Position numbers and translations under genes: made by a program. Below the pieces are notes generated by a model. The model made no database searches. It was not told where the DNA came from and was given only the letters and a program-made list of their open reading frames with translations. A stretch of 52,936 bases of DNA from Patescibacteria group bacterium (GTDB lineage: Bacteria > Patescibacteriota > Patescibacteriia > JAXHNJ01). Shown here in pieces: positions 42,563-45,217 of this stretch. The stretch lies in contig JAXHNJ010000002.1 in the NCBI GenBank assembly GCA_034520665.1, forward strand, positions 126,230 to 179,165. The letters are read 5' to 3'. Within the stretch, counting starts at the first letter, position 1, and each line of letters opens with the position of its first letter.

Positions 42563-42649
42563 AATAATAAAAAAATGCTGATCAATCACTTTATATTTTA
42601 AAATAAATTAGCCTCTTTGGCAAGTTTGTTAATAAATTAACAACACCAA

Positions 42650-42862
42650 GCCACAACGGTCACGTGGGGGTCTGGGGGTAAAACTTCGAGCGCCAAGAAC
42701 TGCAATAATGATCAGCCATACACACGCGCGAGTTTTTACCCTCAGCCCTCTTTGGTTCTTTCTGGGGACAGAAAGAACAAATAAAATTAATAAACTTATA
42801 AAAAATATAAATTTTTTCTCTTTTTTGGCAAGTCTTAAATAAAAAGAAAAAACCCGCACCAT
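42650..42862. repeat. 213-bp direct repeat, copy 1 (downstream of cassette A)
   Basis: Begins GCCACAACGGTCACGTGGGG, runs through a GC-rich block and ends in the left arm of terminator A (CCCGCACCAT). By-eye comparison finds no difference from 43784-43996. On the minus strand a 72-codon frame crosses it, and the short ORFs it seems to offer are identical in both copies and not credible genes. This covers most of the gene-free gap 42563-42918. Confidence 0.9.
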
Positions 42863-42882
42863 TATAGATAATTGATGCGGGT
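42846..42882 (-). terminator. Terminator of cassette A
   Basis: ACCCGCACCAT and ATTGATGCGGGT (G-T and one mismatch) enclose an AT-rich loop and are followed on the minus strand by six T. Confidence 0.85.
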
Positions 42883-42918
42883 CGTTATTAAAAAACTAAG
42901 TGCTTAAGTCCCAAGGAC

Positions 42919-43578
42919 TTAGTTACTTGCGAGAACGGCGGCAGGACGGCCAGAGCTCCAGACGTCACGGTCGACCCAGTCGTAGAGCCAGCGCCAGGAA
43001 CCATCAACATAGCGGCAGAGATAGAGAACAAGGCGGCGGCCGACCGGGCCGCCGAGAATAGTTCCCCAGAACGATAGCCAGGTGATACCTTTTGTCTCGT
43101 AGAGCCAGTTCAAGGTAGTGTGGCCCTCCTCCTGCCATAGAGCGAGGAAATCCTCGGCGTCGAGCTGCAGATCTTGTTCACCCGCGACTTTAATGCGCCT
43201 GAGGCGCTCTTCGCCGTTGATATATGATTCCCCTTCTTTGAGATAATCATTTCGGGTGATCTGACCGGCTTCCAGATTGTCGCTGGAACGCTTTGATACC
43301 TGTTCGTTGACTGACCAGCCTTTTCCGATGAAATTCTCGACGTCGAAAGGCAGACGCTTGAGGATGTGGGGTTCGGCGACAAGCAGGCACGCTTCGACCC
43401 GATTACGGACGTCGGCCACGAAATTTGCGGCGATTTCCGCACCTTCTTTCTCGATTACAGACTGGATAACTGCGTGGGGTAACTCACTCTTTCTCAACCT
43501 CGCGATGACGAGATCGGCGATCTTTGCTGCCTGACCAGCAGAAATGATTTCTTCGGACGGGGACATGGATTTTTCCAC
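42919..43578 (-). CDS. Cassette A: GC-rich ORF, hypothetical, 219 aa
   Basis: Function not recognised. The frame also opens at ATG 43638 inside the leader hairpin, but AAGGAGG lies 8 nt before GTG 43578, so VEKSMSPSEE is taken as the N-terminus. Charged helical first half (EIISAGQAAKIADLVIARLRK), a middle NDYLKEGESYINGEERLRRIK and a Trp/Arg-rich end: LYLCRYVDGSWRWLYDWVDRD, then VWSSGRPAAVLASN. The end resembles cassette B (RWL...D..VWS...R). GC is 33-37 of 60 in sampled lines, far above the AT-rich neighbours. Promoter, leader and terminator are shared with cassette B. Probably transferred cargo in a conserved expression shell. Confidence 0.75.
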   Translation of the reverse strand: MEKSMSPSEEIISAGQAAKIADLVIARLRKSELPHAVIQSVIEKEGAEIAANFVADVRNRVEACLLVAEPHILKRLPFDVENFIGKGWSVNEQVSKRSSDNLEAGQITRNDYLKEGESYINGEERLRRIKVAGEQDLQLDAEDFLALWQEEGHTTLNWLYETKGITWLSFWGTILGGPVGRRLVLYLCRYVDGSWRWLYDWVDRDVWSSGRPAAVLASN

Positions 43579-43632
43579 GGCGACATCCTCCTTTTTCAAG
43601 ATTATTACCATCGGACCACTACTCTTTGCAGC

Positions 43633-43679
43633 AGCCATAGCCAGAAAACCTCAATTTTTAAGGCCTTTTGGCTATGGCT
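43633..43679 (-). promoter_or_regulatory. Conserved 47-nt leader hairpin of cassette A
   Basis: AGCCATAGCC and GGCTATGGCT (10 bp, perfect) enclose a 27-nt inner region that pairs imperfectly. The same outer arms and spacing occur upstream of cassette B (44790-44836), while the inner bases differ. It lies in the 5' leader, between promoter and Shine-Dalgarno. Confidence 0.8.
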
Positions 43680-43714
43680 ACTGATTAATAATATTAATGA
43701 GCAATAAACACTTG

Positions 43715-43743
43715 ATAATAGCGCAAATTCATCTCTTTGTCAA
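43715..43743 (-). promoter_or_regulatory. Promoter of cassette A
   Basis: Perfect -35 TTGACA, 17 bp, -10 TATTAT. Upstream CCCAAACA is shared with the promoter of cassette B. Confidence 0.85.
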
Positions 43744-43783
43744 TGTTTGGGATATGGATGGAATTTAAATAACTATAACCCAG

Positions 43784-43996
43784 GCCACAACGGTCACGTG
43801 GGGGTCTGGGGGTAAAACTTCGAGCGCCAAGAACTGCAATAATGATCAGCCATACACACGCGCGAGTTTTTACCCTCAGCCCTCTTTGGTTCTTTCTGGG
43901 GACAGAAAGAACAAATAAAATTAATAAACTTATAAAAAATATAAATTTTTTCTCTTTTTTGGCAAGTCTTAAATAAAAAGAAAAAACCCGCACCAT
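43784..43996. repeat. 213-bp direct repeat, copy 2 (between cassettes B and A)
   Basis: Appears identical to 42650-42862, 1,134 bp apart, ending in the left arm of terminator B. It explains most of the gene-free stretch 43744-44095, which also holds a GC-rich TCGACAAG-type hairpin and the 3' untranslated tail of cassette B. Confidence 0.9.
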
Positions 43997-44024
43997 CTCG
44001 AACTTGTCGAGAGACGATACGGGT
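43981..44024 (-). terminator. Terminator of cassette B
   Basis: ACCCG and CGGGT with an inner extended stem including CTCGA/TCGAG; six T follow on the minus strand. Same outer stem as terminator A but a different inner part, with matching changes on both arms. Confidence 0.8.
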
Positions 44025-44095
44025 CGTTGAGTTCAAGTCCCAAGAACTAAGGACAAAAGCCTAAGAGGTCAAAGTGCTTAAGTCTCAAGGACTAA

Positions 44096-44725
44096 TTACT
44101 TGCTGCGAACGAAGACGAAACGATGGTCAGGACTCCAGACGAAGTCAGGAAGGCCACAGTTGGTGCTGAGCCAACGACCGTAGGCACCGTGCCCGACGTA
44201 AAACAACTCGAGATCACCGTCAGAATCAGTAATAGATTCCATGGCTATGTACAGACATTCGTTGCTGGGCTGATCAGGGTACTGCAGACGCAGTTGTGGA
44301 CCAACCTCGGCAGGACAAAGTTCATAACCGAGCTCACGGATGCGAGTACAGATATTATTGAAGCAAGTGTGGCCGCTGAAGCCAAGTTCTGCCACCGTGG
44401 CGGTAAACAGCTCGACGGTAGTCTCACTATTCGCCAGTGTAAATGTAGGCTTGGACATGATATCACGAGACCAATCGCTGATTTTCATACCAGCATTTTT
44501 GATGGCCCGCTGGAGTGATTCGGTGTCCTTATTGCCAAGCTTGATGGTCTTGAAAACGGAGAATCTTGGGGCTTCCCAGGGATTCTCCTTGCGGAGAAAC
44601 TTTTTGAGAGCCCTGACCCACTGCGGATCAGACAGTTTCTCGAGAAGGTCGCAAACGCTTCCAAGCGTTTCGTTTGGAAGCGTCACGAGCTTTCTCACAG
44701 CGATACCGAGCATGTCTCTAGACAT
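44096..44725 (-). CDS. Cassette B: GC-rich ORF, hypothetical, 209 aa
   Basis: Function not recognised. AAGAAGGAGG stands about 7 nt before ATG 44725; the longer frame (to 44881) covers the leader and is not used. The protein starts MSRDMLGIAVRKLVTLPNET, has a basic helical part (DPQWVRALKKFLRKENPWEAPRF) and ends in an aromatic domain: ELFYVGHGAYGRWLSTNCG, then FVWSPDHRFVFVRSK. This C-terminal RWL...D.VWS...R pattern is shared with cassette A, while the rest differs. GC content is again high for the window. I have a general impression that similar LPNET-containing starts recur among Patescibacteria hypotheticals, but this was not checked. Confidence 0.75.
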   Translation of the reverse strand: MSRDMLGIAVRKLVTLPNETLGSVCDLLEKLSDPQWVRALKKFLRKENPWEAPRFSVFKTIKLGNKDTESLQRAIKNAGMKISDWSRDIMSKPTFTLANSETTVELFTATVAELGFSGHTCFNNICTRIRELGYELCPAEVGPQLRLQYPDQPSNECLYIAMESITDSDGDLELFYVGHGAYGRWLSTNCGLPDFVWSPDHRFVFVRSK

Positions 44726-44789
44726 GGTCAGTCCTCCTTCTTCGGGGTTATTGCCGTTATTGCCATCGGGGGATGTCACAATTTGCGAC

Positions 44790-44836
44790 AGCCATAGCCA
44801 GAAAACTCTAATTTTTAGGGTCTTTTGGCTATGGCT
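44790..44836 (-). promoter_or_regulatory. Conserved 47-nt leader hairpin of cassette B
   Basis: Same 10-bp outer stem (AGCCATAGCC/GGCTATGGCT) and total length as the cassette A leader; inner bases CTCTAA/TTAGGG are different but still able to pair. A CCGATGG.AATAA block between the hairpin and the Shine-Dalgarno is also shared. Confidence 0.8.
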
Positions 44837-44884
44837 ATCTAACAGCAAGTAAATAAATATACTTAAAAGAGCAATAAACATTAA

Positions 44885-44913
44885 ATACTAGCACAAATCA
44901 ACCTATTTGTCAA
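44885..44913 (-). promoter_or_regulatory. Promoter of cassette B
   Basis: Perfect -35 TTGACA, 17 bp, -10 TAGTAT. Confidence 0.85.
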
Positions 44914-44958
44914 TGTTTGGGATGTGGATAAAATTTTAATAGCCATAACTAAGTCCCA

Positions 44959-44995
44959 ACAGTCTCGTGAAGAGCCTGAAGGTAGAAAGAACAAA
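44959..44995. repeat. Decayed third copy of the cassette spacer repeat
   Basis: ACAGTCTCGTG followed by a degenerate block and GGTAGAAAGAACAAATTAAT resembles the start (ACGGTCACGTG) and the middle (GACAGAAAGAACAAATAAAATTAAT region) of the 213-bp repeat with a large inner deletion. It bounds the array on the upstream side of cassette B. Confidence 0.5.
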
Positions 44996-45217
44996 TTAAT
45001 ATATTAAAACTTCCACTCTCTTTATCCGACTCTTTTCTCCTTTTTTAATATGAACCTGACTTTTAGCCACCTTAAAATATTGACTTAATAAATTTATCAA
45101 AGCTTTATTGGCCTGGCCCTTCTCCGCTTTTTGAGTTAATTTTACTTTTAAAAAATCCCCTTGTCTGGAGATTTTTTCTTCTCTAGCATTAGTGATTACT
45201 TTAACTTGAAGAATCAT
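44996..45217 (-). CDS. DUF167 (YggU) family protein
   Basis: 73 residues. The pattern LQVKVITNAREEKISRQGDFLKVKLTQKAEKGQANKALINLLSQYF is the family signature (VxPxAxxxx..., then G.AN..L...L). Small alpha/beta protein of unknown biochemical role, often found near cell-division or membrane genes in other bacteria. The ATG overlaps the last codon of the glycosyltransferase gene by 4 nt, so it is translated with it. Its stop is at the edge of the cassette array. Confidence 0.85.
   Translation of the reverse strand: MILQVKVITNAREEKISRQGDFLKVKLTQKAEKGQANKALINLLSQYFKVAKSQVHIKKGEKSRIKRVEVLIY

Follow-up and report, generated by a model that had tools for sequence, protein, structure and literature searches.

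Organization of the locus

In the window analysed here, a stretch of 52,936 nucleotides, the minus strand from 44995 to 42646 carries two tandem units, each consisting of a promoter, a hairpin leader, a Shine-Dalgarno sequence, a GC-rich open reading frame (ORF), a tail, a terminator and a spacer (Table 1). The locus is bounded by a short ORF (44996-45217) and by an ORF of 964 aa, which in our reading looks like an isoleucyl-tRNA synthetase. A preliminary description of this DNA had named these parts, and every one of them was located. It had also placed a decayed spacer upstream of gene A; what can be recovered of this is a 25-nt match of 84% (44984-45008), beside the match between the promoter regions of A and B, which are 79% alike over 91 nt. 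Terminator A was missed by a simple terminator scan, the permitted loops of which were 3-8 only.

By blastn, the two spacer copies form a direct repeat of 217 nt with 1 mismatch. No further copy was found elsewhere in the organism's own genome or in the related loci that were fetched, and because it occurs only at this locus the spacer is, by its distribution, a local duplication outside the general shell; it had been described as a conserved part of that shell, and of this claim the repeat itself stands. On both strands the spacer has the potential to fold as a long hairpin (GGGTAAAAACTCGCGCG..CGCTCGAAGTTTTACCC), and no relatives of it were found.

Table 1. Positions of the features of the two units in the window
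Feature	Position	Strand	Basis
Promoter A, TTGACA-17-TAGTAT, TG ahead of the second hexamer	44885-44913	-	promoter scan
Leader element A: 47-nt hairpin (44790-44836) and downstream segment	44757-44842	-	covariance model R1 and fold
Shine-Dalgarno of gene A, AAGGAGG	44733-44739	-	sequence
Gene A, DGR variable protein, 209 aa	44096-44725	-	homology, clustering, structure model
VR of gene A, limits approximate	44096-44229	-	alignment to TRs of relatives
Post-VR tail A, CTT motifs about 7 nt apart	44027-44095	-	
Terminator A (GACCCGTATC..GATGGTGCGGGTTTTTT)	43981-44026	-	sequence
Spacer copy 1, overlapping the 3' half of terminator A	43780-43996	-	direct repeat
Promoter B, TTGACA-17-TATTAT	43715-43743	-	promoter scan
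Leader element B: 47-nt hairpin (43633-43679) and alternative-pairing segment	43602-43685	-	R1, fold, alternative pairing
Shine-Dalgarno of gene B, AAGGAGG	43587-43593	-	sequence
Gene B, DGR variable protein, second C-terminal class, 219 aa, GTG start	42919-43578	-	homology, clustering
VR of gene B, limits approximate	42919-43059	-	alignment to TRs of relatives
Post-VR tail B with hairpin AAGTCC-TTG-GGACTT (42906-42920)	42895-42920	-	
Terminator B (ACCCGCATC..GGTGCGGGTTTTTTC)	42845-42882	-	sequence
Spacer copy 2	42646-42862	-	direct repeat

Genes A and B encode DGR variable proteins

A search with protein A across 380 genomes of the phylum yielded relatives in 45. Often there is a further match to the C-terminus at a distance of about 0.5 kb; those of these further matches that were examined are template repeats (TRs). 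In many relatives a VR of about 130 bp ends the gene and a TR lies nearby. The VRs and TRs of nine such loci are 123-137 bp long and their mismatches are concentrated at adenines of the TR (14/15, 12/13, 25/26, 10/11, 17/18, 18/19, 26/27, 14/15 and 11/14); further VR/TR pairs give 14/16, 19/20, 20/21, 14/16 and 10/11, and adenine-directed pairs occur in 13 of the 53 loci that have the leader pattern described below. Reverse transcriptases (RTs) with the motif YIRYADDF adjoin many of the target relatives, as do Avd proteins, the single tested example of which matches bAvd PF22296 and DivGenRetAVD. Gene B represents a second C-terminal class, which is also found in genomes G465, G432 and others. 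By homology, A and B are targets, or variable proteins, of diversity-generating retroelements (DGRs), which are bacterial hypermutation systems.

The short C-terminal pattern that had been noticed in both proteins (RWL...VWS...R) is real and sits in the VR. As had also been claimed, the two ORFs otherwise differ; they fall into distinct N-terminal (N4, N5) and C-terminal (C1, C2) clusters, which were built by single linkage and are hence coarse. Of 59 proteins associated with the leader, those of N1, the most frequent N-terminal cluster, carry C-terminal domains of four clusters, and those that share A's N-terminal cluster carry domains of two, so the domains of the targets have been recombined; in a target of genome G331, a B-type C-terminus follows an N-terminal module that has 80% identity to the module of A.

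Neither protein matched a family in Pfam or NCBIfam (none above the cut-off) or in PADLOC, and an enterocin-like match of B (E 0.095) was taken as chance. Protein A is predicted to have a helical N-terminal module (residues 1-51) followed by a C-type-lectin-like domain (residues 55-209). Its AlphaFold2 model has a pLDDT of 85.5, with high confidence over residues 55-209 and low confidence in the N-terminal helices, and the 24 best PDB matches returned by Foldseek are all C-type-lectin domains, none of them significant (E ~0.06 or worse). Viral contigs searched with protein A and the leader pattern gave no match, and so there is no sign in them of a phage source of the targets.

The GC content of genes A and B is 51% and 55%, as against 33% in the flanks, which bears out the reported contrast between the cargo and its AT-rich surroundings. 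Since target ORFs are GC-richer than their surroundings in 30 of 30 loci (0.549 vs 0.398), the contrast at this locus is a general trait of targets. At 42919-44725 the enrichment spans the whole genes, not the VR alone.

Adenine signature in the VRs of A and B

Both VRs were compared with heterologous TRs of relatives, and tests against different TRs are not independent of one another. In the strongest case for VR-A, against the TR of locus L147, 20 of 35 adenine positions differ as compared with 18 of 87 others, and most, but not all, of the relatives' TRs give the same excess. Against the TR of locus L085, VR-B differs at 25 of 38 adenine positions and at 23 of 95 others. Comparisons of TR with TR show the opposite trend, with 19% differences at adenines and 32% elsewhere. 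Because of this excess, and the reverse trend in the controls, both VRs were probably written by adenine mutagenesis at some time.

A conserved leader RNA

The leader hairpins of A and B are 88% alike over 56 nt, and both leaders are predicted to fold more stably than dinucleotide shuffles (z -7.9 for A, -6.0 for B). The covariance model R1 scores them at 74.5 and 81.9 bits respectively, both being in its training set. In an alignment of seven leaders 10 of 23 pairs show compensatory change, and the covariation score was reached by 0 of 500 shuffles. No match to the leader was found in Rfam. The model built on this alignment has matches in 65 of 381 genomes of the class at E 0.01, the weaker ones being less certain, and the leader often precedes a DGR RT of the same strand by 1.5-1.7 kb.

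A search of 84,980 species for the exact leader pattern gave 53 stretches, almost all from Patescibacteria. In about 45 of the 53, judged from the table of loci, an ORF of the modular target family follows. The targets behind the leader represent no fewer than four C-terminal module types and several N-terminal ones. The expectation that a search of other Patescibacteria with the hairpin would find the same leader ahead of many different ORFs is borne out. The modular system of shells and cargo that had been proposed survives in this respect, as one leader precedes many ORFs and their modules recombine; the cargo consists of DGR variable proteins and does not make up a novel integron-like array. 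Three pattern matches outside Patescibacteria (a Bacteroidetes MAG, L145; Bdellovibrionaceae, L175; Psychrobacillus, L180) lack a target ORF and were put down to chance or misbinning.

Some copies precede other kinds of protein. In L137 and L130 the leader stands ahead of a protein that combines an N-terminal module with an Hpt domain and has no VR, and in L138, L142 and L153 ahead of proteins without a recognisable VR, those of L142 and L153 having hydrophobic N-termini and no Pfam match. Given these copies, the range of genes served by the leader may be wider than the targets. In L149 the pattern (1317-1370, minus-strand coordinates) lies immediately 5' of a DGR RT reading frame.

In 70 distinct leaders there are 203 G-U cells and 36 A-C cells; two nearly fixed columns give 119 of the 203, and without them the counts are 84 and 34. 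An A.C mismatch is kept in 60 of the 70. An alternative helix (H2), in which the 3' arm of the hairpin (H1) pairs with the downstream segment, can be formed by 48 of the 70 leaders where 13.6 are expected; it was not found in the other 22, and the best H2 pairing in the leader of gene A is poor. As G-U pairs far outnumber A-C, the leader appears to be under selection as sense RNA, and these patterns point to an RNA acting in sense for which two states are possible. A role as terminator was rejected, there being no U-run after the hairpin, and in the folds predicted for A and B the Shine-Dalgarno sequence is not sequestered by H1.

The tail and the RNA upstream of the template repeat

Downstream of the stop codon, CTT motifs recur with a spacing of 7 nt: in 32 tails the lag-7 count is 39, whereas shuffled tails give a mean of 2.2 and a maximum of 6. 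Inspection by eye found no such periodicity after the TR. A post-stop hairpin is present in 8 of the 32 tails. In the Bordetella phage BPP-1 a hairpin is required at the corresponding place, which makes it plausible that the 7-nt tail serves as a target-recognition element.

A conserved RNA domain upstream of the TR shows compensatory change in 24 of 39 pairs, has no match in Rfam and is probably the 5' part of the template RNA. The model of it, R2, describes a strongly covarying domain of about 135 nt upstream of the TR in Patescibacterial DGRs (L121 2392-2528, L114 644-780 and other loci).

Search for the retroelement in the genome

The genome is assembled in 3 contigs and is 98.25% complete, so that about 2% of it may be missing from the assembly. 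Targeted searches, on which the absence of the machinery rests, detected in it no DGR RT, no Avd and no further copy of VR-A or VR-B that could be a TR; the DGR-RNA domain, found in 10 of 10 RT-positive control genomes, was likewise not found. The single RT of the genome (C2:252445-252996; L036 6281-7258) is of the retron type, its best PADLOC match being RT_III-A, and was rejected as a DGR RT: its best matches are retron-type models, there is no TR near it and its similarity to DGR RTs is weak. Since RT, Avd, TR and DGR RNA all went undetected, A and B look like orphan targets, the VRs of which are probably frozen.

The same condition is frequent in the class. In a sample of target-bearing genomes, 43 of 95 have no DGR RT match (E 1e-10), as do 16 of the 33 that are at least 95% complete and in at most 30 contigs, counts in which some weak target matches may be other proteins. 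The DGR-RNA domain was also missing from 22 of the 25 other RT-negative target-bearing genomes tested, with the qualification that RT and RNA queries may miss more distant DGRs. The preliminary description had recorded the lack of a reverse transcriptase; no DGR RT was found here, and the lack is a trait of this genome and not of the system.

Discussion

We consider it highly probable that A and B are DGR target genes in a genome from which the retroelement has been lost or which acquired the targets alone. The sequence evidence for this comprises target homology, the adenine signature, covariation of the leader, periodicity of the tail and the lack of a detectable core. A DGR RT together with Avd would have reverse-transcribed a template-repeat RNA, making errors at its adenines, and the mutated cDNA would have replaced the 3' end, the VR, of each gene. 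The outcome would be a C-type-lectin-like domain with a variable, presumably ligand-facing end, attached to an exchangeable helical N-terminal module. Transcription from the promoter would yield a structured leader (H1, in most copies also H2) whose most likely role is to control translation or the stability of the mRNA, and the 7-nt-repeat tail most likely marks the VR as recipient, as does the hairpin downstream of the VR in BPP-1. In A and B the VRs would now be frozen, with expression still under the common leader. The chances are about even that this leader is a new RNA family which acts as a two-state regulator (H1 versus H2) of DGR variable proteins and of a few other Patescibacteria genes, frozen repertoires included.

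The strongest alternative, which we nevertheless regard as unlikely, is that an overlooked DGR continues to diversify A and B in trans, whether from the unassembled 2% or so of the genome, from a plasmid or phage, or through intermittent supply. An assembly completeness of 98.25% leaves room for this, the ORF, leader and tail of both genes are intact, and in G432 a B-type target and the DGR RNA lie on contig 3 with the RT on contig 54. Against it, RT, Avd, TR and DGR RNA would have to be missing together, two VR classes would require two TRs, and the same joint absence recurs in those 22 of 25 other genomes.

Far less probable is a cassette-exchange system apart from DGRs, in which the leader hairpin would be an integron-like recombination site. 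Such a system would explain why many cargos stand behind one leader and why N- and C-terminal modules are recombined, and the near-identical spacers that flank gene B could recombine and excise it; but almost all of the cargo consists of DGR-type variable proteins, in many cases with a TR in the locus, and the spacer is not common to other loci. The leader, moreover, lies between the promoter and the Shine-Dalgarno sequence, and the preference for G-U over A-C indicates a sense RNA instead of a DNA site, which counts against a role as attC. Least credible of all is a plain tandem duplication of one gene followed by ordinary divergence: the two units have promoter, leader, terminator and spacer in common, and their shells probably did arise by duplication, but the coding sequences belong to different clusters at both ends and relatives of each are found separately.

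The DGR targets of Patescibacteria lack recognisable domains and an assigned function. A conserved leader RNA offers a handle on the timing of target expression, and a sequence tag for targets, including those distant from an RT or in RT-less genomes. Orphan targets, being frequent in the class, suggest that finished variants outlive the machinery that made them. Should the two-state leader prove true, a common signal would control a repertoire of hypermutated proteins, frozen ones among them. Two candidate recognition elements are the 7-nt tail and the covarying RNA that precedes the TR; no experimental system for the Patescibacterial DGR clade was found in the literature searched.

Among known systems the closest is DGR clade 2 of Patescibacteria/CPR, whose targets lack recognisable domains and are modular and whose RT and TR have been described in uncultivated Patescibacteria (Roux et al. 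2021, PMC8144416). The present targets resemble these in their lack of domains and their modular organisation, and differ in having a common structured leader and a 7-nt tail, also where RT, Avd, TR and DGR RNA are absent; the word 'hairpin' does not occur in a text search of that paper. In BPP-1 a hairpin-forming element directly after the VR, outside the TR/VR homology, is required (Guo et al. 2011, PMC3240598); it has a GC-rich 8-bp stem and a GRNA loop, and nothing upstream of the VR is needed (PMC3240598). The tail described here, by contrast, consists of successive repeats of 7 nt that include small stems, and a conserved 5' leader is present. In C-type-lectin-fold DGR variable proteins, such as those of Thermus aquaticus (PMC6328139) and archaea (PMC5006420), the variable residues lie near the C-terminus of a small domain. 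The predicted fold of A is like these, though the fold match is weak, and unlike them A and B match no Pfam or NCBIfam family above the cut-off. With integron gene cassettes the locus shares variable cargo in constant surroundings, but here every unit carries a promoter and an RNA leader of its own, and variation arises through DGR mutagenesis and recombination of domains. No description of the leader family, of the tail or of retention without the retroelement was found in the literature searched, a provisional statement, since that literature included few subscription journals. The kind of gene is already known, that of DGR targets; what appears to be new is the common RNA leader and tail and the retention of targets without the retroelement.
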